The translations under genes were made by a program, and so were the position numbers. Below, one piece after another: positions 2,868 through 24,290 of a stretch of 64,000 nucleotides of DNA (its first letter is position 1; every line of letters starts with the position of its first letter). Source of the stretch: Tsukamurella paurometabola DSM 20162 (lineage in GTDB: Bacteria; Actinomycetota; Actinomycetes; Mycobacteriales; Mycobacteriaceae). A model generated the notes under the pieces. It worked only from the letters and a program-made list of their open reading frames with translations, was not told where the DNA came from and ran no database searches. Where the stretch lies: positions 4,092,001-4,156,000 of the forward strand of contig NC_014158.1 of assembly GCF_000092225.1 (NCBI RefSeq). Direction: 5' to 3'.

Positions 2868-4319
2868 ATGTCCCTGATTGATTCGGCGGCCGACCCAGCG
2901 CCGCCGCAGTCCACCTCGCCGCCGAAGCGGCCGGGGTGGCGGGCCGCGATACTGCGGCTGCACTTCTACGCGGGCCTGCTGGTGGGCCCGTTCATCCTGA
3001 TCGCCGCGATCAGCGGCGGGCTCTACGCGGCCGCTCCCACCGTGGAACGGTTCGTCTACTCGAACGAACTCACCGCGGCCACGACCGGTCCGGCACAACC
3101 GCTCACCGCCCAGGTGGCGGCCGCCCAGGCAAGTCGACCCGATCTCGTGGTCAAGGGCCTCCGGCCGGCCGAGGAGGCCGGTAAGACCACGCGAGTGCTG
3201 TTCACCGACCCAACCCTGACCGACGGTCGTGATCTCGCCGTCTTCGTCGATCCCGCCTCGGCACAGGTGCAGGGCGCGCTCCCGGTGTACGGGTCGGTCG
3301 AGGCGCTGCCGATCCGGTTCTGGATCGATCGCCTCCATGTGGACCTACACCTGGGCGATGTGGGCCGGTTCTACAGCGAGCTGGCGGCATCGTGGTTGTG
3401 GGTGGTCGCTCTCGGCGGCATCTACCTGTGGTGGCGGGCCCGCCGCGGCGACGCCCGCGCGATGCTGGCCTACGACCGGTCCCGCCCGGGACGCGGCGGC
3501 GCGATGAATCGGCACGCGGTGATCGGCACCTGGCTGCTGCTGAGCCTGCTGTTCTTCTCGGCGACGGGGCTGACCTGGTCGAAGTACGCGGGCGACAACA
3601 TCGCCCAGCTCCGCACCGAGCTCAGTTGGACCAAGCCGACGCTGTCGACGTCGTTGCAGCCCGAGGCGAAGTCCGAGGGCGGGGGCGAGCACGCCGATCA
3701 CGGCGGTGCCGCGCCGGCGGCCGCACCGGTGAGCCCCGAACTGGCGGCACAGACCCGCGCCCGCAACATCGCCGCGCTCGACCGGGTGGTGGCCGCGGCG
3801 GCGGACCGAGGTGTGGGCGGCGCCGTCCAGGTGTCCATCCCGGCCGACCCGGCGGTAGCGATGACGGTGGCGCAGACCCGCCAACCGTGGCGGTTCGGCA
3901 TCGATTCCGCGACCGTGAACCCCGAGACGGGTCAGGTGGTGACGGTACTCGCCTTCGCATCCTGGCCGCTGATGGCGAAGCTCACCGAGCTGCTCATCAA
4001 CACGCACATGGGCTGGCAGTTCGGTCTGCTCAACCAGATCGTATTGGTTGCCTTCGCAACGCTTTTGAGCGTGCTGATCGTGCGGGGCTACGCGATGTGG
4101 TGGCAGCGCCGGCCCCGTGGCGGCGGTCTCCCGCGCCCGCCCGCCCGCGAATCCCTGCGGAAAGTCGATCCCGCCCAAGCGATTCCGGCAGTGCTGGCGG
4201 TCGGATTCGTGGGTTGGTTCCTCCCGGTGCTGGGCATCTCACTGCTCGCCTTCGTACTCGTCGATGTTGCGATAGGCGTGGCTAAGAGGGGGACGGCTAA
4301 CCTAAGAAATAGGCCCTGA
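2868..4319 (+). CDS. PepSY-associated TM helix protein
   Basis: This 483-residue integral membrane protein belongs to the PepSY_TM family. It opens with the characteristic LRLHFYAGLLVGPFIL helix (about residues 25-50), and has further helices near residues 180, 215, 375-400 and 435-465. A large outside region lies between, with a His-rich stretch (EHADHGG) before residue 290. Relatives such as PiuB/FsrB are implicated in iron-siderophore reduction or metal uptake. ATG at 2868 is chosen because GAGGTG at 2853-2858 is correctly spaced as a ribosome binding site; the in-frame GTG at 2856 overlaps that site. The gene follows the Met/His-repeat gene and its 3' end holds an IdeR-like half-site for the ferritin downstream. 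The exact substrate is unknown. Confidence 0.85.
   Translation: MSLIDSAADPAPPQSTSPPKRPGWRAAILRLHFYAGLLVGPFILIAAISGGLYAAAPTVERFVYSNELTAATTGPAQPLTAQVAAAQASRPDLVVKGLRPAEEAGKTTRVLFTDPTLTDGRDLAVFVDPASAQVQGALPVYGSVEALPIRFWIDRLHVDLHLGDVGRFYSELAASWLWVVALGGIYLWWRARRGDARAMLAYDRSRPGRGGAMNRHAVIGTWLLLSLLFFSATGLTWSKYAGDNIAQLRTELSWTKPTLSTSLQPEAKSEGGGEHADHGGAAPAAAPVSPELAAQTRARNIAALDRVVAAAADRGVGGAVQVSIPADPAVAMTVAQTRQPWRFGIDSATVNPETGQVVTVLAFASWPLMAKLTELLINTHMGWQFGLLNQIVLVAFATLLSVLIVRGYAMWWQRRPRGGGLPRPPARESLRKVDPAQAIPAVLAVGFVGWFLPVLGISLLAFVLVDVAIGVAKRGTANLRNRP
4287..4305. promoter_or_regulatory. IdeR/DtxR-box-like half-site upstream of ferritin
   Basis: The sequence GCTAACCTAA at 4296-4305 matches the entire right half of the 19-base IdeR consensus; the left half agrees at only about 3 of 9 positions. 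It lies in the last codons of the PepSY gene and about 80 bases before the ferritin start. In mycobacteria IdeR activates ferritin from distant upstream boxes, so the placement is plausible. Confidence 0.4.
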
Positions 4320-9581: not shown

Positions 9582-9740
9582 TTGGGTACCTCTCCGTTCG
9601 TAGCTCGAGCAGTGTGCGTCGAGAGACGATCCTACCGACCTGGGCCTGTGGCCCCGAACACCCCGTGTTCCAAGCAGTGTGCAACCCACTGCCTAGCGGA
9701 TCGCGGATAATCGCCTGTGAAGCCGAAACGAGGAGAACCC

Positions 9741-10496
9741 ATGAACCCGTACGGAGACCAGAATTCCGGGCAGAACCCCCCGGGCGGTCAGTACCCGGGT
9801 GGCCGCTATCAGCAGGGCGGATACCAGCAGGGCGGGTACCCGCAGGGTGGCTACCAGCAGGGCGCTCCTCAGCCGCCCGGCGGCTACCCGGGCGGTCCGT
9901 ACTCGGCCGGCGCCCCCACCCACATGTATCCGCAGCAGCCCGGCGGCTTCCCGCCCGGCCCCCCGGGCGGCGGCAACGGCGACGGTAATCGCAAGGGCCT
10001 CATCATCGGGCTGACCACGGTGGTCGTGATCCTCGCCGTGGCGGCGGCGGTCGGCATCGGTGTCGCCCTCCGCGGTGGCAACGAGCAGACGGCATCGCCG
10101 GTCCCGTTCTCCTCCGCGGCCCCCACGTCGGGCGTGCCCACCTCGGGGGCACCGAACACCGGCGGCACCCCCGGCACCGAAACCGACGGTTTCATCACCA
10201 CCGCGCCGCCGTCGACCGGCTCCGGCAGCACCGTCTCGGTGCCACTCAAACTGACCGCCGGCGGATCCGGCGCGGGTGTCGTGCAGATCTCGGGACTGAC
10301 CGGCTCGTCGGCGCCGCCGCCCGCCGCCGTGCTGCCCTGGGAGTGGCAGGGTCTAGCGGACGTCGGGGAGACCATGACGATGCGCGTGGTCGGAACCGGC
10401 CGGGTCACCTGCTCGATCTCGGTGGACGGTAAGGAGCTCAGCTCGCGCGATGGCGATAACACCGTGACGTGCGGAATCAAGCGCTCCGCTTCGTGA
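9741..10496 (+). CDS. MmpS-like membrane-anchored protein
   Basis: This 251-residue protein has three parts. A cytoplasmic tail (residues 1-85) is rich in Gly/Tyr/Gln/Pro with tandem YQQGGY/YPQGGY repeats. A single transmembrane helix lies at about residues 90-112. The outside domain has a Ser/Thr/Pro-rich linker and ends with GRVTCSISVDGKEL...VTCGI, the two-cysteine beta-type end seen in MmpS accessory proteins. MmpS proteins partner MmpL lipid or siderophore exporters in mycobacteria; no mmpL is in the window. ATG 9741 is chosen because GAGGAGA precedes it; GTG 9717 is less likely. A GATAAT -10 element lies at 9706-9711. The MmpS assignment rests on architecture and the C-terminal Cys pattern. 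Confidence 0.6.
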   Translation: MNPYGDQNSGQNPPGGQYPGGRYQQGGYQQGGYPQGGYQQGAPQPPGGYPGGPYSAGAPTHMYPQQPGGFPPGPPGGGNGDGNRKGLIIGLTTVVVILAVAAAVGIGVALRGGNEQTASPVPFSSAAPTSGVPTSGAPNTGGTPGTETDGFITTAPPSTGSGSTVSVPLKLTAGGSGAGVVQISGLTGSSAPPPAAVLPWEWQGLADVGETMTMRVVGTGRVTCSISVDGKELSSRDGDNTVTCGIKRSAS

Positions 10497-10543
10497 CGGC
10501 AGCGGACGCGACCCGCCCGGACGCCCGTCCCACCGCCGGTACG

Positions 10544-11752
10544 ATGCAATCCGTGTCGACCGCTCCCGCTGCCGCCGAGGCGCCGCCGCGCAGCATCGTC
10601 GAGCGGACCCGGTCGGTCTGGCTGCCGATCGCCTACTACCTCGCGATCCGCGGTATCGGCCTCGCGGTACTGGCCCGGTTCGCGCAGTTGCGCAATCAGA
10701 ACCTCGCCGACCTCCTCACTGCCTGGGACGGCAAGTGGATGATCGGTCTGGCCACCTACGGCTACGACGACATGCCGTGGCGATTCGTGGACGCACGCGG
10801 CGAGCACACCGCCGACACCGCCTACGCCTTCTTCCCGGGCTTTCCGATGCTGGTGCGCGCCGTCGCTCAGCTGCCCGGATTCGACGCGTACCGGGCCGCG
10901 CTCACGGTGAACGTGATCGTCGGTTGCGCCGCCGCGGTCGCGGCCTACCGGCTGGGCAAACTGTGCGTCGAGCACATGCCGCAGGTTCCCGACCGGTACG
11001 CGCAGACCGCGGGTCTGCTCACCACGGTGCTGTTCGCGGCGGCGCCGATGGGCATCGTGCTGACCATGGCCTATACCGAGGCCCTCTATTGCGCGCTGGC
11101 CGGCTGGGCCCTGGTCGGAGTCATGGAAAGACGGTGGCTCGTCGCCGGGGTCTGCACGGCGCTGGCCGGGTTCTGCCGCCCCACATCGGTGGTGCTGATC
11201 GGTGTGGTCGCGCTCGCGGCGCTCCTGGCGGCGCTCTCATCGACGGGGCCCGAGCGACGACGCGCAGCACTGTGTGTCGTGCTCACCCCGCTCGGCTGGG
11301 TGACCTATCTGCTGATCGTCGCACGGCACACCGGCAGCCTCACGGGCTGGTTCCGCATCCAGACCGAGGGCTGGGGCACCACGTTCGATATGGGTGTGCA
11401 GACCTGGCAGTTCGTCAACTACACCCTGATCAACGGCTCGGACGTGGCCGACCTCTCGGTGGTCGCGCTGCTCGCCGCATCGATCGTGCTGATCGTGATC
11501 GCGGTGCGCTCGAAGATGCCCTGGCCGATCACCCTGTACGGCGCCCTCGTGGTGATCTCGCTGCTGGGCTCGGGCGGCCTGATGATGTCGCGGCCGCGCC
11601 TGTTGCTCCCCGCCTTCGTGCTCCTGATCCCCATCGCGATCGGCCTGGCGAAGCGCTCCCGGCCCGTGCGGCTGTGGACCTGCGCAGGAATCATCACGGT
11701 CACCTGTTGGTACGGCGCGCACATGGTGAGCGTGTACCCGCACGCCATGTGA
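10544..11752 (+). CDS. PIG-V-like polyprenol-dependent mannosyltransferase
   Basis: This membrane protein of about 402 residues has 9 or more hydrophobic segments. The first outside loop carries LLTAWDGKWMIGLATYGY, the W-D-G-x-W motif of PIG-V-type (GT76) mannosyltransferases, followed by the typical AYAFFPGFPML segment. Actinobacterial members use decaprenyl-phosphate sugar donors to mannosylate lipids, glycans or proteins outside the membrane. The start is uncertain: ATG 10544 or GTG 10553, while the longest frame (GTG 10469) would overlap the upstream gene. It follows the MmpS-like gene by about 50 bases and converges on the MbtH/NRPS operon, so it could decorate an exported peptide; that link is speculative. 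Confidence 0.78.
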   Translation: MQSVSTAPAAAEAPPRSIVERTRSVWLPIAYYLAIRGIGLAVLARFAQLRNQNLADLLTAWDGKWMIGLATYGYDDMPWRFVDARGEHTADTAYAFFPGFPMLVRAVAQLPGFDAYRAALTVNVIVGCAAAVAAYRLGKLCVEHMPQVPDRYAQTAGLLTTVLFAAAPMGIVLTMAYTEALYCALAGWALVGVMERRWLVAGVCTALAGFCRPTSVVLIGVVALAALLAALSSTGPERRRAALCVVLTPLGWVTYLLIVARHTGSLTGWFRIQTEGWGTTFDMGVQTWQFVNYTLINGSDVADLSVVALLAASIVLIVIAVRSKMPWPITLYGALVVISLLGSGGLMMSRPRLLLPAFVLLIPIAIGLAKRSRPVRLWTCAGIITVTCWYGAHMVSVYPHAM

Positions 11753-12053: not shown

Positions 12054-12896
12054 TCAGCGGCGCATGTACGCAATGGCCGCAAGGGGGACGAGGATCGCGA
12101 TCATCGCCACGGAACTCAGCGCCGCGTACGCCGTGGCGTGCTCGGAGGCCCAGTTGATCGGATCGTTCAGCGCGGGCGTGGGACTGAGCGGATTGCCGAA
12201 GGCCTCGCGCAGCGAATGCGCCATGGCGGTCACGGGGTTCCACGCGGCGATCGTGCGCAACGGCTCGGGGAGCTCACCGGCCGAGATGAAGGCCGAGGAG
12301 ATGAACGCGAACGGGAACATGACGATCATCAGGGCGGCCTGCGCCGACTCGGGAGTCGACACCAGCAAACCGATGAGCGCGCCCAGCCAGGACATCGCGA
12401 AACCGAAGAGCAGCAGGACCGCCAGCGAGAGCGCGGCATCGAGCCAGCTGCCCCGCATCCGCCACCCCACCAGCAACCCCACTCCCAGCATCACGGCCAC
12501 GCTGATCACGTTGACCAGGAGATCGGACACGGTGCGGCCCACCAGGATCGATAGGCGCGACATGGGCAGCGAACAGAACCGATCGATGATGCCGTTCTTC
12601 ATGTCCGAGGCCACGCCGATGGCGGTGGGCGCCGCACTGAAGGCCACCGTCTGCACCAGAATGCCGCCGAGCAGGAACTCGCGGTAGACACCGCTGCCCA
12701 CGTCACCGCCGAGTGCGGAGCCGAAGACGTAGCTGAACAGCACCACGAACATGATCGGCTGCACGGTGGCCGAGAGCAGCAACTGCGGAATGCGCACCAG
12801 GGTGGTGAGATTGCGCCGCGTCATCACAGCGCAGTCGCTCAGGAAGCCCGGGAACGACGATGCCCGCTCCTGCGGGAAGGTGATCGTCGCGGTCAT
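12054..12896 (-). CDS. ABC-2 type (DrrB-like) exporter permease
   Basis: This 280-residue protein has six predicted membrane helices at about residues 35-55, 70-90, 115-140, 150-175, 185-200 and 250-270, and an ABC-2 membrane domain containing MKNGIIDRFCSLPMSR and the AWNPVTAMAHSLREAFGNP segment typical of DrrB/antibiotic-export permeases. Its ATG shares one base with the stop codon of the upstream NRPS-ABC gene (TGATG), so it is translationally coupled to the polypeptide that carries the matching ATPase. It should form the membrane channel for the peptide made by the NRPS. No separate ATPase gene is present in the operon, which supports the fused domain being its energy partner. Confidence 0.92.
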   Translation of the reverse strand: MTATITFPQERASSFPGFLSDCAVMTRRNLTTLVRIPQLLLSATVQPIMFVVLFSYVFGSALGGDVGSGVYREFLLGGILVQTVAFSAAPTAIGVASDMKNGIIDRFCSLPMSRLSILVGRTVSDLLVNVISVAVMLGVGLLVGWRMRGSWLDAALSLAVLLLFGFAMSWLGALIGLLVSTPESAQAALMIVMFPFAFISSAFISAGELPEPLRTIAAWNPVTAMAHSLREAFGNPLSPTPALNDPINWASEHATAYAALSSVAMIAILVPLAAIAYMRR

Positions 12897-15800
12897 CAGT
12901 TCTTCTCCTCGATGGTCTGAGTCGCGTCCTCGCCGGTGAGCGCGAAGAAGACATCGTCCAAGGTCGCTTCGCGCACCATCGCGCTGTCCGCGATCACGCC
13001 CACGTCGCGGAGATCGCCGAGGACCGCCACGATCTTCTGCTGGCCATCGGCCACCCGGATCGCACACAGACCGGAGGCCTCGCGGACGGCGGTGCCGTCG
13101 ATGGCGTGCCGGGCGAGGATGGGCCACGCCGTCGCGCGGTCGCGTTCGCGCAGGCCGATCTGGATGAGATCGGCGGCCGCGGCGGCCTTGAGCTCGGGCA
13201 CCGTGCCGCTGCGGATGATCTTGCCCTGGTCGATGATGGTGACCAGGTCGGCGAGCAGTTCTGCCTCATCGAGGTACTGCGTGGTGAGGAGCACCGCGAT
13301 TCCATCTTCCTTGCTCAGTCGCGCGATCACGTCCCAGACGTCCTTGCGGCTGCGCGGATCCAAACCCGTCGTCGGCTCGTCGAGCACCACCAGGCGGGGG
13401 CGCGCGATGATCGCGCCCGCCAAGTCGAGCCGGCGCCGCATGCCACCGGAGTAGGTACCCGAGCGCCGGTCCGCGGCCTGAGTGAGGCGGAACTGCGAGA
13501 GCAATTCATTCGCTCGTGCCTTCGCCGAGGCCTTGTCGAATCCGTAGAGCCGCGCGAACATCTCGAGGTTCTCGCGACCGGTCAGGTTCTCGTCGACCGC
13601 GGAGTACTGGCCCGACAGACCGATGATCGAGCGCGCTTTCCGCGGGTCGGCGAGTGCGTCGACGCCATCGATGGTGACCGAACCCGCGGTGGGCTCGAGC
13701 AGAGTCGCGATGATCTTCACGGTGGTGGTCTTACCGGCACCGTTCGGACCGAGAAGCGCGTGCACGCTGCCGGGCGCGATATCCAGGTCGACTCCGTCCA
13801 GCGCGTGCACCACGTTCTTCCCGCGGCCGTACGTGCGGGCCAGGCCGCGCACGCTGACCAGCGGCTCCAGATCGTCGAACGACGCGGCGTTCGCCTTCGC
13901 CGCCGGCGTGTAATTGCCGGTCAGGAAGACGTTCATGGTCCGCGCGACCTCGTCGATGGCGGGCGCCGAACCGAGCTGGTTGTGCGTGGCCTCGATGTCG
14001 TGGACCTGCACCAAACCGGTCACGTAAGGCCGCCACAACTGCGGAATCAGTCCGCCCGTGGGTTGGTGCGTGGCACGGAAGACGAGGATGTTGCCGTCGT
14101 ATTCGCGCGGCACGTGCGAGTAGCCGAGCGAGACGTTGTGCCGGTAGTTCGAATACAGCCGTTCCATCTGGCCGCGGGACAGCTCCCGTGCCGGACCACC
14201 CGCGCCGGCCAGAAGGTCGAGCGCCTCGTCGGTGCTGATCTCGGTGCCGTCGTCGATATCGAGCCCGACGAACTCGCGCAGCAGGCTGGCGATCGTCATC
14301 TCCTCGCGCGGTCCGCGGTACTCGCTGAGCGGGTAGGCGTCCATCAGTGCGAGGTTGACCTTCTCACCCAGGCCCCGCAGCTCCACCGCCATCTCGTGCG
14401 CGATCAGGCCACCCAGGCTCCAGCCCAGCAGGTTGTAGGGACCGTGCGGGCGGGTGGCCCGGATCGACCGAACATAGTTGCGGGCCAGTTCCTTGATCGA
14501 ATCGGCGGGCGGCATCGGATGCGAGATACCGGGTGCCTGCAGCCCGATGATCGGAATGCTCGGGTCGAGCTCGGCACTGAGTCCCAAGTAATTCCAGGCG
14601 AGCCCGACCGCCGGGTGCACGCAGTACAACGGGTCGATGCCCGGGGTTCCGGCGCGCAGCGGCAAGATCGGATCGGTGATGGCGGTATCGGAATCCGCTG
14701 CCACACCGGTGATCACGGCCGTGGTCGGGGCGGCTCCGGGGTTACCCGCGATCCGCGCTGCCAGCGCTCGCACGGTGGCATCCTCGAAGAACCAGCGGAT
14801 ACTGGCCTCCTCCGCCCCGAACCGCTCGCGCAGCCGGTCGACGGCGATCGCCGCCTGCAGGGAGGTGCCACCGACGGTGAAGAAGTCATCGTCGAGCCCG
14901 AGCGAGGGAACGCCGAGCACATCGGAGAGTACTTCTGCGACTGCGCTTTCCATATGGGCCGAAGCCGCCGGGAGGGAGGTGTCCGCCGAATCCTGACGCA
15001 CCGGCGCGGTGATCCCACGCGGCGCCGTAGGTACTGCGGGCCGGGCGGGCGCCGTCACCCGCGGGGCCCGCGGCGGTTCCACCACCTGAGGCACCGTCGG
15101 CGCGACGAACTGCACCGGTCCGGCGGGCTCGACCGGCGTGTCGACCTCGGACTCGACGACCTTCACCGGTTCGGACACGACCGGAGGCAGGGCCTTGAGG
15201 TCGGTCTTACCGTGCGCCGTCACGGGTACCCGGTCGATCTGCACCAGCACGGACGGGATCATGTGCCGCGGGAGACGATCGGTGATGTGTGCGCGGACCT
15301 GCTCGGCCGGCAGCACGCCGTCGGCGACGTAATAGGCCACCAGTCTGGCCGCTGCCTGTGCGTGCAGCGAACCGTCGCCACGATCGACGACCACGACCGC
15401 CTGCCGGACCGACGGATGGCTCTCGACGGCGGTGGCGACCTCGCCCGGCTCCACGCGGAAGCCGCGCACCTTGAGCTGATCGTCGCTGCGGCCCACGAAC
15501 TCCAGCACGGGCTCGCCCGAGTCCGACGCGCGCCAGCGCACCAAGTCGCCGGTGCGGTACATGCGCTTGTAGCCCTCGGCGTCGCTGTACGGGTTGGCCA
15601 CGAACCGCGAGGCCGTCAACTCAGGGCGATCGAGGTACCCGTGTGCCACACCCGGTCCGGCGACGTACAGCTCGCCGACAGCGCCCGGGGGCACCAGGTT
15701 GAGCCGTTCGTCGCAGATCATCAGCTGGGCATCGGTGACGGCACTGCCGATGCTCACGTTCTCGGCGTCCACGGGGCCCATGGTCGCGGCGATCGTCACC

Positions 15801-18800
15801 TCGGTGGGGCCGTAGGCATTGATCAAGATGCGTCCGTCGGACCAGCGGCGGGCCAGTTCGGATTGCAGCACATCGCCGCCCACGCTGAGCGCTTCGAGGA
15901 GCGGCAGGTCCCGATCGGGAATCGTCGCCAGGGCCGCCGGGGTGATGAACGCGTGCGTCACCTCGTTCTCGGCCAGGAAATCGCCCAGATCGGAGCCGCC
16001 GTAGAGCGTCGTCGGCGCGATCACCAGTTCGGCGCGCGACCAGGTCGCGAGCAGGAGCTCGAGGATCGATGCGTCGAAGCTCGGGGAAGCGAAATGGAGT
16101 ACCCGCGCACCGTTGCCCACGGCGTGCTGGCGCACCAGCGTATCGGCCATGGCGGCCAGGCCGCGGTGCGGCACCACGACGCCCTTGGGGCGGCCGGTCG
16201 AACCGGAGGTGTAGATGACGTAGGCGGGGTCATCGACGTGCACCGGGTCGACCTCGACGGGGGGACGCTGCACGCGGGAGGCACCGGGATCCACCAGCAC
16301 CCAGTCGATCTCCTTCGGCAGCTCACCCACCACCTCACGGACGGTCAGTCCCATCGAAGGCTTCGCGTCGTCGAGGATGTACCTGATCCGCTCGGCCGGG
16401 TAGCTCGGGTCGATGGGCACGTACACCGCGCCGATACGCGCCACCGCCCAGAACGCGACGACGGAGGCGGCGGACCGCGGGATCGACACGGCCACGCGGG
16501 TTCCCGACCCCACGCCGAGCCCTGCCAGGCGGTTCGCCAGTGCGGTCACAGCGGAGTCGAGTTCGGAGTAGGTGTACCGGACGACCCCGTCGCGCAGGGC
16601 CGGATCTCCCGGACGCTGCCGCACGGCGCGGGCCAGGATGTCGGCCATGGTGTGCGGTTCGACGGAGCTGCTCGCCCGCAGGAAGGCCTCTTCCTCCTCC
16701 GGCAGGAGTACCGGCAGGTCGGCCACCGGGGTGCCCGGCGATGCGATGCCCTCGGTCATCAACCGGGCCAGTCGCTTGACGATGCCCTCGGCGGTGCCGT
16801 GGGTGTACAGGTCCGTGCGGTAGCGCAGGTTGAGCCGGAGGCCCTCCTCCACTTCGCGCACCTCGAAGGTGGCGTCGAAGGTGGTGGTGGCCGCCGCCAG
16901 ATCGAGCGGCTCCAGGTCGAACATCCCCGCACCGTCGGTGCTGATCACGCTGAGCGGATCTCCGAGATTCTGGTGGCTCAGCACCACCTGGAACAGCGGA
17001 TGCCGGTCACGGCTGCGAGGCGGCGCCACCGCCTCGATCACGCGCTCGAACGGCGCGGTGGCGTGGACCAGATCGTCCAGGTCGCCGCCGCGGATGCGGT
17101 CCACCAGTGCGCTGAACGGTTCCTCGCTCTTGACCGCGGTGCGCAGCGCCACGGTGTTGACGAACATGCCGACCACATCACGGAGCCGGCGGTCGGTGCG
17201 GCCGATCACCGGTGTGCCCACGACCACGTCGTCGGAGCCGTTGACTCGGTGCAGCAGCGCGACGAGTGCGGCGTGCAGCACCATGAACACCGATACGCCA
17301 CGGCGTCCGGCGAACTCCGCCAGCGCATCCCGCTGCGCGGACGGGAGCACCACGGCGACCTCGCCGGCATCGGTCGATCCGACGGTCGGGCGTGGTCCGT
17401 CGGCGGGGAAGCTGGACTCCTCGGGAATGCCGCGCAGGCGCTCGGCGAAGTAGTCGACCGCTCCGGCGTCCTTATCGGCCTGCCCGCGCTGCCACACCGC
17501 ATAATCGGCGTACTGCAGCGGGAGCTCCTCCCACTGTGGGGCTGTGCCCGCGGTGCGCGCGAGGTAGGCGGCCATCAGGTCGCGAGTCAGCGGCACGACG
17601 GACGCGCCGTCGGCGGCGATGTGGTGCACCGCGATCGACAGGATCGAACCGATACCGGTGGGCGCGGTGAGCAATCGGATCGGAAGATCGCGGTTGAGCA
17701 CGAAGGGGCGCGCCACGAACTCGGCGATGGCATCGCGCTGATTACTCACGGTGGACGCGGCGGTGCCCTGCTCCGCCGAGAAGGAGCGGACCACGGGGTC
17801 GTCCGCGGCCAGGATCTCCTGATACGGGCCTTCGACGCCCGACGGGTAACGGGTGCGCAGGCTCTCGTGGCGCGCGAGTACATCGCGCAGCGCCTCGTCG
17901 AGAATCCGCTTGTCCACCGGGCGAGCCGCGAAGAAGGCCGCGCCGATGTTGTAGGTGGGGCCCGGATCGATCTTGTTCTGCAACCACATCCGCTCCTGGG
18001 CGGATGAGAGCGGCATACGGTCGCCGCGCTGCACGCGGCGCAGACCCTGGTCTTCCAGCGCGGATAGCTGGATGATCGAGTCCGGGTCGCCGGTCAGCGC
18101 CGCTGCGATGGCCGACGGGGTGCGCAGGTCGAAGACGGTCCGCACTTCGATCCCGTTGCCCAGCAGGCCGACCAGCTCGTTGGCGGACAGCGAGTTGCCG
18201 CCCAGGTCGAAGAAGTCGTCCTCGACCCCGATGTGCTCATTACTGAGCACCTTCCGGAAGGCCGCGACCACACGGCTCTCGCCCGGGGTGGTGGGCGTCG
18301 CCGCGGCATCGCCGGTTCCGCCGAACCGCGGCTCCGGCAGCGCGCTCTTGTCGAGCTTGCCGGTGCTGCCCATGGGCACCGCGTCGATCATCATCACTGC
18401 CGCAGGCACCATGAAGGCCGGCAGCCGAGTACGCACGTACGCTCGCACCGCGGCGGGGTCGATGTTCCCGCCCTTGACGTAGGCGACGAGGGCCGACTCG
18501 CCGTCGGGGCCGGGCAGCACCTGAGTCGTCACGAAGTCGACACCGGGCATCGTGCCGATGGTCGAATCGATTTCGCCCAGCTCGATCCGAATGCCGCGAA
18601 TCTTGACCTGGAAATCGTTGCGGCCCACAAACTCCACGACCAGTTCTCCGGATTCCGAACGGGACCATCGAACCACGTCGCCGGTACGGTACATCCGGCT
18701 TCCGGGCGCGCCGTACGGATTGGCCACGAACCGCGATGCGGTGAGTTCGGGGCGGCGGTGGTAGCCGCGGGCCAATTGCGGGCCCGCGACGTACAGCTCT

Positions 18801-21800
18801 CCCGGCATGCCGACGGGCACGGGCCGCAGCAGCTCGTCGAGCACCAGCAGGCCCTGTCCACGCACGGGCGGCCCGATCGGAACGCGCCCGTCACCGGACA
18901 ATGCGTCCGAGATGGCGGTCATGATGGTGGTCTCGGTGGGGCCGTATCCGTTGTGCAGGCGGCGGCCCGCACTCCACTTCGCGGCGAGGCCGGGGTTGAT
19001 CGCCTCTCCGCCGGAGAGTACGTGGGTCCACTCGGGCACCGCCTCGGGTGCGAGTGTCGCCAGCGTGGAGGGCGTGAGGAAGCCGTGAGTCACGCCGTTG
19101 TCGGCGATGATCCGTTCCAGTTCCCGGCCGCCGGTGATAGCGGGCGGCACGATCACCAGCGGCGCACCCACACGCAGGGCCAGCAGGTGCTCGAGCACGG
19201 TGGCGTCGAAGGCGGTGGAGGCGAAGGCCATCACGCGGGTACCGGTGCCGGTCTGCAACCGCACGTGCAGTTCCTCGGCGAAGTTCTCCAGGCCGCGGTG
19301 GGTGACCACGGTGCCCTTGGGCTGCCCGGTGGAGCCGGACGTGTAGATCACGTAGGCGGCGTCGTCGAGGCCGGGCACGATCTGCGGGTCGTAGCCCGGG
19401 CCGTGCTCGTCCAGGCGATCCATCGCAACCCAGGACAGGCCCGGTGCGCCGCCGGAGGCGGTGACGCCGACCCGGGCGCGGATGTCGTCGGCGATGTAGT
19501 CGCGACGCTCCTTGGGGTACTTGGGATCCACCGGTGCCACCGCCGCACCGGCCAGGGCGATGCCCCAGAAGGCGATCACCGAATCGGCGGACCGCGGTAG
19601 GTCGGTGAGCACCGCCTCGCCCGGGCGTGACCCGGCAGCCACCACCGCCGCGGCCACGGTGCGGGCCTGCGAGTACAGCTCACGGTAGGTCAGGGTGCGA
19701 TCGCCGTCGATCACCGCAGGACGATCGGAGAAGGTCCGCGCAGCCTCGCGCATGAGCTGCCCGAGCGGCGTGCGGAAGTCCGCCTCGACCCCGCGGACCG
19801 GGGTCAGCTCCGCGAGCCGGGACTCGGACATCACGGGCAACTCGGCGATGGTCAGCTCGGGGTCGCGGCCGACGGCGTGCAGCACCGAGACGAGCGCGTC
19901 GAGGATCGACTCGGCCTGCTCGGCCCGGTACAGCTCCGAGGCGTAGCGCAGCTCGATGGTGCCATCACCGGCGAGCGTGACCTCGAGGTCGAAGCGTGCG
20001 ATCGGGACGTCGACCGGTGCCACCTCGACGTCGATACCGGCCATAGGGAAGTGCTGGGCGTCGAACGGCCGCTGGTTGAGCATCACCTGGAAGATCGGGT
20101 GTCGTCCGGCGGCGCGCGGCGGGTCGACCAGTTCGAGCACCGACTCGAACGGCAGGTCCGAATGATCCAACGCCGCAAGGTCGCCGCGGCTGACCTCCCC
20201 CAAGTGCTGGGAGAACGTGGCGTTCTGCGGGGTCCGAGTACGCAGCGGGATCGAGTTGACGAACATGCCGACGAGGCCGTCGAGTTCCGCCTCGCCGCGG
20301 CCCGCGACCGCAGTACCGATCACCAGGTCCTCCTGGCCGGACAGGCGCGTGATCGCGGCGGCGAGTGCCGCGTGGACCACGATGAACGGGGTGGTCACGT
20401 GCGCGCGGGCGAGTCCGGCGACACCGGCCCAGACCTCGGGCGCGACGCGGGTGCCGATCGACCTGGCGCCGGAGACCACGCCGCCGGAACGCGGCACCGC
20501 GGCGGGCGGGACCGATTCGGCGGGCAACCCGGCGAGGGTCTGCGCCCAGAAGGCGTCGAGGGTCTCGCGCGGGGCGCCGGTGAGCCGTCGTTTGTAGGAG
20601 CGAGCGTGCTCGGTGTAGGTGCGCGGGAGCGGTGCGAAGCGCGGTGTCTTGCCCTGCGTGCGCACCGCGTAGGCGGAAGCGAGATCGCCGGCGAGCGGCA
20701 TCATCGACCAGCCGTCGGCGGCGATGTGGTGGATCACGAGCACCAGCACCTGATGCTTGGCGTCCACCTTGTAGAGGCGTGCACGAATCGGCACATCGGC
20801 GGCCAGATCGAAAGGCTCACCGGCGTATTTGACGGACGCCGCGGTGAGATCGGCCTCGGTCACCTCGCGCTCGGTGAAGGGCACCAGGTTGGGCCCGGCG
20901 GGCAGCACCTGGACCTCGGGTTCGCCGGCGGTAGGACCGTTGCGGTACACCGTCCGCAGCGGAGTGTGCCGGGCCACCACGTCGCCGAGTGCCGCGCGCA
21001 TCGCTGAGACGTCGACATCGCCGCGCAGGTGCAGAGCGACCGGGATGTGGTACGAGCCATCGGGACTCACCCGGTTACGTACCCACATCTGATGCTGCGC
21101 CGGGAGCAGGTCGGCGGCCTCTTCGGCACGGTCCTCGGTGGTCGGATCGGCGTGGATGATGTCCTCGGGCTCCGGCGCGGGCGCGGGGGCGCCACCGATC
21201 GCAGCCGCGAGCCCCTCCACCGTCGGGTGCGCGAAGACGGTGGCCACGCTGACCCGATTGCCCGTGGCGGAGCCGATGCGCGCCGCGATGCGGGTGGCGG
21301 ACAGCGAGTTGCCACCGAGGTCGAACAGTGTCGTGGTGACGTTGAGCTTGTCCTTGTCGACTCCGGGGATCACCTCGGCGAAGGCCTCGGCCACCAGCTT
21401 CTCGGCGTCGGTCTTCGGCACCCGGCCGGCCGTGACGGCGGCGATATTGCGCTCCGGCTGCGGCAGCCTCTTGTAGTCGACCTTGCCGTTCACGGTGAGC
21501 GGGAACTCGTCGAGCACGATGATGTGCGCCGGGACCATGTAGGCCGGGAGTTCATCCGAGATCGCCGCAGTGATGGTCGCCGCGGGTGCGGTACCGGTGA
21601 CATAGCTGACGAGTTCGGCGGTGGCGGTGTCGTCGCCGTGCACCACGGTGATCGCGCGCTCGGTGCCGCCCACCCGCATCACCGCGGCGTCGATCTCACC
21701 GAGTTCGATGCGGAAGCCGCGGAGCTTGACCTGGGAATCGATGCGGCCCAGGAATTCCAGCGTCCCGGATTCGGTCCAGCGCACCACGTCGCCGGTGCGG

Positions 21801-24256
21801 TACATGCGGACGCCGTCGCCCTCGAACGGATTCGCCACGAATCGTTCGGCGGTGAGCACCGGATTGCCATGGTAGCCGCGGGCTATGCCGGGGCCGGAGA
21901 TGTACAGCTCGCCGGCGACGCCGGTCGCCGTCGGACGCAGGGAGGAATCCAGCACGTACAGCCGGGTCCCGGGAATCGGGCCGCCGAGTCGGACCGGTTC
22001 GCCGGCGGCCAGTTCGCCGAGGGTGACCGCGATGGTGGTCTCGGTCGGACCGTACACGTTGACCAGGGTGCGACCGGGCGCCCACGCGTCGACCAGGGCC
22101 TGCGGCACCGTATCGCCGCCCACTCCGAGCGACGTGAGCTCGGGCAGATCGGCCGGATCCAGAGTCGCGACCGCGGCGGGGGTGATGAAGCCACCGTTGA
22201 CCTTCTCCCGTGCGAGCACCTCGGTGAGCTCGTCGCCGCCGTAGACGTCCGGCGGCACCACCACGAGGGTGGAGCGACTGTCCACGGCCATGAGCAGTTC
22301 GAGAACGGAGGCGTCGAAACCGGGAGAGACGAAGTGCATGACCCGCGCACCGTCGGGCAGGCCGTGCGAGCGGACCAGCTCGGCTGCCAGACTGGAGAGC
22401 CCGCTGTGGGTGACGCTGACGCCCTTGGGGCGGCCGGTGGAGCCGGAGGTGAAGATCACGTACGCCGGTGTGTCCAGCGCGATGTCGGGCCAGTCCGAGC
22501 CACCGGTGTCGGCATGGGCACCGGGCCCCCATACGCGCGCCAGATCGGCCGGCGTCAGGGTAGCGACCGGTGCCGCCGCCTCGCTGATGTGCTCGGCTCG
22601 CTCCGCGGGCAGCTTGGGATCGATCGGCACGAACGCCGCCCCGGTCTTGGTCACCGCCCACACCGCGATGACGGACTCCAGCGAGCGCGGGATACGCAGG
22701 GCCACGCGCTCTTCGGGTCTCGCGCCGATGGAGATCAGGTGGCGGGCGAGCCGGTCGCTGTACTGGTCGAGTTCGGCATAGGTGATGCTGCGGTCACCGT
22801 CCACGACCGCCACCCGGGCCGGCTCGGCCGCGGCGGCGCGGCGGAGCAACTCGGGCATCGGAACCGAGGGTCCGGCGGCTGCGGGGGCGCCGTCCACGGC
22901 ACCGGCCAGCCGCATCCAGTCGGCGCGCTCGGCATCGGTCGCCACGTCGAGTTCGGACAGCGGGGTCTGGCCGGCCGCGGCGGCGAACCGGTCCAGGTAC
23001 TCCATGAACCGGGCGTGGTGGGCGGCGAGCTCCTGCGCGGTGTAGGTCGCAGGGTTCGCCTCCATGTCGATCCGGACGGCGCCCTGCTCGGATTCGTAGA
23101 CGGTGGCCGCGACATCCTCCGCGGGTCCGGAGGTGAGCAGATTGAGTTTGCCCTCGGTCTCGCCCAAGGTGATGGCGGTCGAGAACATCATGATGTTGAT
23201 GGTGTCGCCGAACGTCGAACCGACCACGCCCTCACGGAGCGTGGGTGCCTCCATGCGGGCCGCCGGGTACAGCTGGTGGCGGAGGCCGTTGCGCAGGTCC
23301 AGACCGGTGCCATCGACCACGTCGGACACGGTGGCGCCCTTGCCGACCCGAACCGGGACCGGTAGCACGTTCGCGGTCATGCCCGTCGATCCGCGCAGCA
23401 CGGCGGTGGTGCGGGCGGCGACCGGCACCGCGATCGACAGCTCGTCACGGCCCGCGATCGCGGCGACGTACGCGCCGAACGCGGCGATGACCAGACCCGA
23501 CCGATTGGTCCCGAGCCGCTCGGCTCCGGCATCGAGGCGAGCGCCCATCTCGTGGCTGGACTCACCGTTATGACGCAGGTTCAGAGGCGATGGGCCCGAG
23601 ATTCGGCGGCCGAGCCCGGCGGCCTCCGGGAGGGTGGGGACGATTCCGGACCAGTACTGGGCATCCCCCTCGGCGCGGGCGGACTGGAAGTACTTCTCCT
23701 CGGCGGCGACGAAGCCCTCGGGGGCCAGCGGCTTCGGCTTGAGTGCGGGTGCGTCCTCACCGGTGACCAGCGCGGTGTACAGCTCGGCGACGCGACGCTG
23801 CAGAGTGGAGGCTCCGTACCCGTCGATCACGGCGTGGTGGGCCCGGGCGTACCAGAACCAGCGATCCTCGGAGACTTCGATGAGCCGGTTGACGATCAGC
23901 GCGTCCGCGGCCAGATCGAGCGGCCGTGCGTATTCGGCACGCATCCACTCGACGGCGGCCGCGACCCGCTCCTCCTCGGGCAGGTCGGCGAGGCCGATGT
24001 CGATCACCTCGGCGCCGGCATCGATGCTGCGGTCGATGCGCTGTACCGGAGCGCCGGAGTCGTCGACGTCGATGCGGACGTAGGGCGAGACGAACTCGTC
24101 ACTGGCGGCACGGGTGGCGGCACGCATCTTCTCGACGTCGAGCGCACCCTCGAAGTCCACGTACTGGGCGACGGCGTAGGAGACGTCCGGCGACATCTGC
24201 TGGCTCAGCCACATCCCGTATTGGGCCCCGGTCAGGGAGTGCACCGCGTGCTCCAC
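12896..24256 (-). CDS. Three-module NRPS with thioesterase fused to a DrrA-type ABC ATPase
   Basis: This 3786-residue protein reads C1 (HHAVIDG near 140), A1 (FTSGSTG near 604), T1 (GGNSL near 982), C2 (HHIAADG near 1178), A2 (YTSGSTG near 1643), T2 (near 2020), C3 (HHIAADG near 2213), A3 (YTSGSTG near 2684), T3 (GGTSL near 3129), thioesterase (GWSLG near 3279, late His in ATHNQ). From about 3460 to the end follows a complete ABC ATPase: Walker A GPNGAGKT near 3503, signature YSGGM near 3603, Walker [13 protein letters not shown] near 3623, and a DrrA-like C-terminus [10 protein letters not shown]1 and the thioesterase resemble EntF. There are no epimerase or methylation domains. By visual alignment with GrsA the A-domain pocket residues are DALFGGVIAK, DALFLGGIMK and DALFSGAIAK; substrates are not predicted with confidence. 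The GTG at 24256 is chosen because AGGAG lies six bases upstream. It makes a short acylated or capped peptide and probably energises its export with the coupled permease. Confidence 0.95.
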
Positions 24257-24290
24257 CAAGCTCTCCTATTGTCGCGTCGCAAAACCTCAA

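Follow-up and report, generated by a model that had tools for sequence, protein, structure and literature searches.

A three-module peptide synthetase fused in frame to a DrrA-like ABC ATPase in Tsukamurella

The window, a stretch of 64,000 nucleotides from Tsukamurella paurometabola DSM 20162 (NC_014158.1, positions 4,092,001 to 4,156,000), carries a single gene in which three condensation-adenylation-carrier (C-A-T) modules of a nonribosomal peptide synthetase (NRPS), a thioesterase (TE) and a DrrA-like ABC ATPase follow one another in one frame (Table 1). An ABC-2 permease gene adjoins the fused gene, its ATG sharing one base with the fusion's TGA (TGATG), and a gene for an MbtH-like protein completes the cassette. 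An earlier note on this DNA had described one frame of 3786 residues that passes from the NRPS modules through the TE into the ABC ATPase, with a permease that begins on the stop codon, and all of this was borne out. The minus strand forms one open frame over 12896..24259 whose translation contains no internal stop, the stop-free fusion recurs in 13 genomes (see below), and the GC content by codon position is that of a single coding frame, continuous across the fused gene. On the plus strand, the frame over 12896-24256 is interrupted by stops. The gene ends at TGA 12898-12896 and likely starts at GTG 24256, because this codon is preceded by AGGAG in the window, because the stop-to-stop frame of a relative (L036) opens at the same GTG, and because another relative (L045) keeps the GTG and has TCG in place of the preceding TTG. 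As read from the DNA, the gene encodes one polypeptide, a three-module NRPS-TE linked to a DrrA-like ATPase.

Table 1. Features of the cassette and its neighbours, in window coordinates. Residue numbers, here and in the text, are counted from TTG 24259 and are one more than in a numbering from GTG 24256.
Feature	Position	Strand	Basis or remark
Fused gene, C-A-T-C-A-T-C-A-T-TE-ABC, 3786 aa	12896..24256	minus	Open frame, translation, Pfam
Condensation domain 1	22940..24256	minus	HHAVIDG at 141; Pfam; limits approximate
Adenylation domain 1	21470..22882	minus	Pfam, motifs; limits approximate
Carrier (T) domain 1	21170..21427	minus	GGNS at 982; Pfam
Condensation domain 2	19790..21127	minus	HHIAADG at 1177; Pfam; limits approximate
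Adenylation domain 2	18365..19762	minus	Pfam, motifs; limits approximate
Carrier (T) domain 2	18080..18307	minus	GGNS at 2020; Pfam
Condensation domain 3	16685..18028	minus	HHIAADG at 2212; Pfam; limits approximate
Adenylation domain 3	15200..16657	minus	Pfam, motifs; limits approximate
Carrier (T) domain 3	14720..14932	minus	GGTS at 3130; Pfam
Thioesterase domain	13931..14632	minus	GWSLGG, Asp in LMDAYP, His in ATHNQ; Pfam
TE-ABC linker, 19 residues	13868..13924	minus	Alignment of 13 Tsukamurella sequences
DrrA-like ABC ATPase domain with C-terminal extension	12899..13867	minus	Pfam, NCBIfam, motifs
ABC-2 permease, 280 aa	12054..12896	minus	ATG overlaps fusion stop (TGATG)
MbtH-like protein, 67 aa	11799..12002	minus	Pfam PF03621, 90.4 bits
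Mannosyltransferase (PIG-V)-like gene	10469-11752	plus	Between cassette and ask
Gly/Pro-rich protein	9717-10496	plus	Between cassette and ask

In the fused protein, Pfam recognised three Condensation, three AMP-binding and three PP-binding domains, one Thioesterase domain (residues 3210-3443) and one ABC_tran domain (3487-3631), in agreement with the domain order given in the earlier note. Motifs are named and defined here as is general knowledge for NRPSs and ABC proteins. The C-A-T modules bear HHxxxDG, the core motifs of adenylation (A) domains and the carrier serine, as expected of an NRPS, and the thioesterase, which scored 93.7 bits against a cut-off of 26.4, has the features of an alpha/beta-hydrolase TE, with a Ser-Asp-His triad that we take to lie in GWSLGG, LMDAYP and ATHNQ. 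The linker between the third A and T domains (about 15199-14933, minus strand; residues 3021-3109) is long and rich in Pro and Val. Matches to the EntF and MxcG models extend along most of the first module; this suggests that the product may be N-acylated, with the cap delivered in trans. As to the acyl donor, no match to a DHB-AMP ligase model exceeded its cut-off, and the best matches lie elsewhere in the genome, at chromosome position 3795640 and plasmid position 95121. The A-domain codes, read by eye against the order of the GrsA motifs, gave no interpretable amino acids. On the plasmid of this genome (G000, C2), the region at about 72622-96686 has NRPS-sized frames of 1518-1666 aa that match AMP-ligase domains, two frames (304 and 684 aa) that match ABC-2 membrane proteins, and a gene resembling DHB/salicylate-AMP ligases.

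The ABC domain contains Walker A, Q-loop, YSGGM signature, Walker B and D-loop, with TTQYL at the switch position, and the C-terminal extension of DrrA-type proteins. The NCBIfam model TIGR01188 (drrA) aligned over positions 6-302 of 302 at residues 3484-3776, and the score of 307.6 bits narrowly missed the cut-off of 312.45; we therefore call the domain DrrA-like and do not file it as a member of the family. The best solved relatives of the domain, judged by sequence, are ABCA-type ATPases. The permease scored 97.6 bits with Pfam ABC2_membrane (cut-off 26.9) and 71 bits with the DrrB model TIGR01247, far below the cut-off of 223.05 and outside that family. According to the portions of PMC11539658 considered, the signature TYSGGMRRR of the fused domain is also that of Mycobacterium tuberculosis DrrA, whose C-terminal region is required for export; in that PDIM exporter, DrrABC, the subunits are separate proteins, unlike the fusion.

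Selection across the protein was gauged by uncorrected pN/pS, averaged over pairs of 13 Tsukamurella genomes for 14 segments. The ABC core gave the lowest value of all (0.091). The NRPS domains lay at 0.12-0.23, the C-terminal part of the ABC domain at 0.181 and the TE-ABC linker at 0.46, while the linker between the third A and T domains, at 0.58, was the least constrained of the 14. Purifying selection on the ABC core is strong by this measure and, together with the intact ATPase motifs, would fit a working transporter. The TE-ABC linker is weakly constrained, and a specific contact between TE and ABC is therefore not indicated.

Within the genus the arrangement is stable. A genus search (E <= 1e-120) found the stop-free fusion in 13 of 16 Tsukamurella genomes, one per species in the genome collection, and no match in the other three; in a TE-ABC query of 201 family genomes, 13 of the 15 from Tsukamurella and one other (G172) had TE and ABC in a stop-free frame. 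The order of the fused C-A-T x3-TE-ABC gene, permease and MbtH was kept in all 12 relatives fetched; in one of them (L042) the contig edge truncates the 5' end. The gene leuA lies upstream in 11 of the 12, the exception being L042, where the contig stops short, and a mannosyltransferase-like gene and ask lie downstream in all 12. The PIG-V-like and Gly/Pro-rich genes were likewise matched in 12 of 12. The TE-ABC linker has 19 residues in all 13 aligned Tsukamurella sequences, its sequence varies, and no case of a renewed split was seen among the Tsukamurella genomes searched. In genome G168 both flanks are present, with no NRPS-domain match between leuA and the gene that follows the cassette; the site (L161 7417-11178, leuA to the mannosyltransferase-like gene) holds MFS-type and methyltransferase ORFs instead. 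Genome G339 (83% complete) gave weaker matches only, mostly to the ABC part, and in G198 (890 contigs) the contig ends before the site, so that absence of the locus is unproved there.

Outside the genus the fusion is rare. Among the matches listed, a stop-free TE-ABC frame was found only in the window's own genome in a survey of the class (148 genomes, 82 genera), and in two Tsukamurella genomes in a survey of the order (200 genomes). Searching with patterns from the TE end yielded 80 loci, a set that overlaps the other genome surveys and is not extra evidence: 10 were fused (nine from Tsukamurella and one from Gordonia hydrophobica), 62 had a separate ABC gene, either in another frame (52) or in the same frame behind a stop (10), and eight had no ABC in the stretch covered. 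The earlier note had called separate NRPS and exporter genes common and their fusion unusual, and the genomes sampled at family, class and order level support it on both counts. It is amended in two respects: the fusion is derived from a split operon, and one further fusion occurs outside Tsukamurella, in Gordonia hydrophobica. In Gordonia, 35 of 59 genomes gave a match at E <= 1e-100 and one of them was fused; 15 of the other 34 were examined at ORF level (11 loci, of which L170 lacks the TE in the DNA covered, plus G038, G117, G129 and G152), and the ABC was a separate ORF in each, the remaining 19 being known from the match list alone. Several apparent fusions were rejected in the same way. 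Six loci from other genera (L018, L019, L020, L022, L023 and L024), the strongest of the matches interrupted by a single in-frame stop and candidates for read-through or a hidden fusion, proved to be separate ORFs (L047-L049, L051-L053); "open frames" of near 5000 aa (L054-L060 and 11 Gordonia loci) were all split, as was G235 (3980 aa), and a long open frame reported for a match is no evidence of fusion.

The split relatives, from Nocardia, Gordonia, Skermania and their kin, share the operon order NRPS, in some cases MbtH, DrrA-like ABC and ABC-2 permease with Tsukamurella, at 33-50% identity in the TE and 44-56% in the ABC (leaving out L048, whose ABC is in two pieces), but they encode NRPS and ABC as separate ORFs. 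In the split Gordonia loci examined, an MbtH gene lies between the two. In all 15 Nocardia control loci (see below) the NRPS stop overlaps a plausible ABC start, as GTGA in 14 and ATGA in one, and a GTGA overlap also occurs in L061 and L062, the split relatives with the highest TE identity (50%). A small indel would therefore join the frames. From these comparisons, the Tsukamurella fusion is derived, the operon being split in relatives, and would have arisen when an operon of NRPS, ABC and permease lost the stop that separated TE from ABC.

The second fusion, known from one draft genome of Gordonia hydrophobica (L050 2730-15815, also L084; 1 of 59 Gordonia genomes), joins a TE in frame to a DrrA-like ABC with a permease next to it, and differs from the three C-A-T modules of Tsukamurella in having four C, three A and four T domains. 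The 20 kb covered there gave no match to MbtH, which separates NRPS and ABC in the other Gordonia loci examined, as if its loss had joined the frames. In a tree of the ABC domain (87 rows, quick method) the 13 Tsukamurella sequences formed one clade with support 100, and the Gordonia hydrophobica sequence was nested, with support 95 and 100, among split loci that are all from Gordonia except L060. A single clade of all fused sequences was narrowly rejected (AU p 0.047), in a tree that carries a long-branch warning, the Tsukamurella branch included. Two independent origins of the fusion are thus weakly favoured by the sequence data.

In ABC ATPases two domains must pair to bind ATP, and these proteins work as dimers with membrane subunits. 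We consider it fairly probable that the locus encodes a covalently tethered synthetase-exporter, in which a short linker connects the TE of the NRPS with the ATPase of its own exporter. As the published DrrBC-A2 model has it (PMC11539658, considered in part), paired ATPase domains would then lie beneath two molecules of the neighbouring permease, and each permease pair would have assembly lines, most likely two, placed at it and held at the membrane by the fused ATPase. The TE would free the finished, possibly N-acylated, tripeptide beside its export channel. We infer that the protein would be attached to the membrane, that two lines would serve each transporter, and that this particular product would be exported and N-acylated; a direct hand-over of the peptide from TE to channel, put forward in the earlier note together with the two lines, is our guess, and the fused ATPase could in principle export something else. 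In the fusion the association of NRPS and ABC would be permanent, and the fusion argues for, without proving, a coupling of release to export.

A stronger form, for which we see some chance and no more, is an obligate synthetase-exporter: the ATPase would exist only as the tail of the synthetase, two three-module lines would serve each channel, the ATP cycle would be coupled to TE release, the peptide would pass from TE to permease outside the cytosol, and the arrangement would have evolved twice from the split operon.

The most serious competitor, to which we give somewhat less than even chances, is that the fusion is neutral: chance loss of a stop would have merged two overlapping, co-translated genes into one whose product does what the separate proteins did, with no gain. 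Drift of this kind would look alike at first. The overlap of NRPS stop and ABC start (in L061 and L062 and in 15 of 15 Nocardia loci) means that a small indel suffices, the weakly constrained linker fits, and one fixation event explains all Tsukamurella fusions, which form one clade; with the split operon common and the fusion rare, drift is therefore a possible origin. However, chance alone sits less easily with a fusion kept in 13 genomes at a constant linker length and with no re-split seen, or with the joining of the same two domains a second time in Gordonia hydrophobica, although a common origin of the fusions was only narrowly rejected.

Somewhat less probable, in our judgement, is a role modelled on cereulide synthesis, in which peptide synthesis would depend on the ABC domain as an allosteric switch or an anchor at the membrane, in the way that cereulide depends on CesC, with export secondary. 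In the parts of PMC7527721 considered, CesC binds condensation domains of the CesAB synthetase and anchors a C domain at the membrane; the Ces NRPS is held there by CesCD, and no cereulide is made without CesCD. An ABC ATPase thus physically links an NRPS to the membrane, as proposed for Tsukamurella, and the permease adjoins the fusion in all 12 relatives fetched. The CesCD link, however, is non-covalent and made to C domains, whereas that in Tsukamurella is covalent and lies at the TE; the same parts of that paper record no contact of CesC with a TE. This last point weighs, by analogy, against the TE-to-channel reading as well as against an anchor of the CesC kind, and the complete set of ATPase motifs and the strong constraint are just as compatible with a working transporter; nothing in the sequence data tells this reading apart from export.

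It is rather improbable that the ABC domain is also, or mainly, made free of the synthetase, either from an internal start or through proteolytic cleavage of the linker, with the fusion incidental. The varying linker sequence would allow this, as would ATG 3442, which all 13 genomes share and which has GAGG upstream in 10 of them; this codon, however, lies within the TE domain, and the linker has no start codon common to all 13 Tsukamurella sequences. A separate ABC start at the junction should leave conserved silent sites there, and we measured divergence at fourfold sites across the 13 genomes in windows of 12 codons (mean 0.367). The junction was unremarkable (window minimum 0.276, with 13% of windows as low; mean 0.341), whereas the same test detected the permease start, with 0.035-0.163 in the windows just before it and their mean in the lowest 0.3%. 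It also detected the ABC start in Nocardia, where 15 separate-ABC loci picked for their short gap from the 62 split loci served as a positive control: the last 12 NRPS codons gave 0.039 (103 comparisons) against 0.147-0.314 upstream. The test is noisy, since windows in the ABC domain with no known start reached 0.181 (3584), 0.184 (3632) and 0.158 (3656). As it responds to known starts and to nothing at the fusion, the ATPase is probably translated solely within the fused protein; ATG 3442 leaves a loophole by which some free ABC may be formed. With one open frame and no conserved separate ABC start at the junction, the gene qualifies as a covalent NRPS-TE-ABC fusion.

That a frameshift or lost stop in the assembly created the fusion is ruled out in practice, since 13 genomes agree on it, codon-position GC runs on unbroken, the genome paper gives 8.25x Sanger plus 37.9x pyrosequence coverage (PMC3156402, considered in part), and nothing was found in favour.

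Set beside known systems, the tethered synthetase-exporter would be new in one respect. The idea of an ABC-linked synthetase is already known from cereulide CesCD, and the covalent fusion is what would be new against the papers searched. In M. tuberculosis the assembly-line enzyme PpsE binds its exporter MmpL7 (PMC1238737, in part), a system that differs from the fusion in making a polyketide lipid, using an RND permease and consisting of separate proteins. The earlier note knew of no described equivalent, and we likewise found no NRPS fused to an exporter ATPase in a search confined to open-licence papers, which is weak as a proof of absence; the expression "NRPS-ABC-transporter" in the portion of PMC2739229 considered denotes transporter genes of NRPS clusters and not a fusion.

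In the papers considered, the placing of an assembly line beside its exporter rests on interaction and co-localisation data (PMC7527721 and PMC1238737, each in part). In Tsukamurella the link is covalent and genetically fixed, while the related operon is split in neighbouring genera, and the coupling of synthesis, release and export is therefore directly testable. The fusion is a naturally occurring instance of a synthetase linked to an exporter, and hints that synthesis and export of the peptide may take place at a single site on the membrane.
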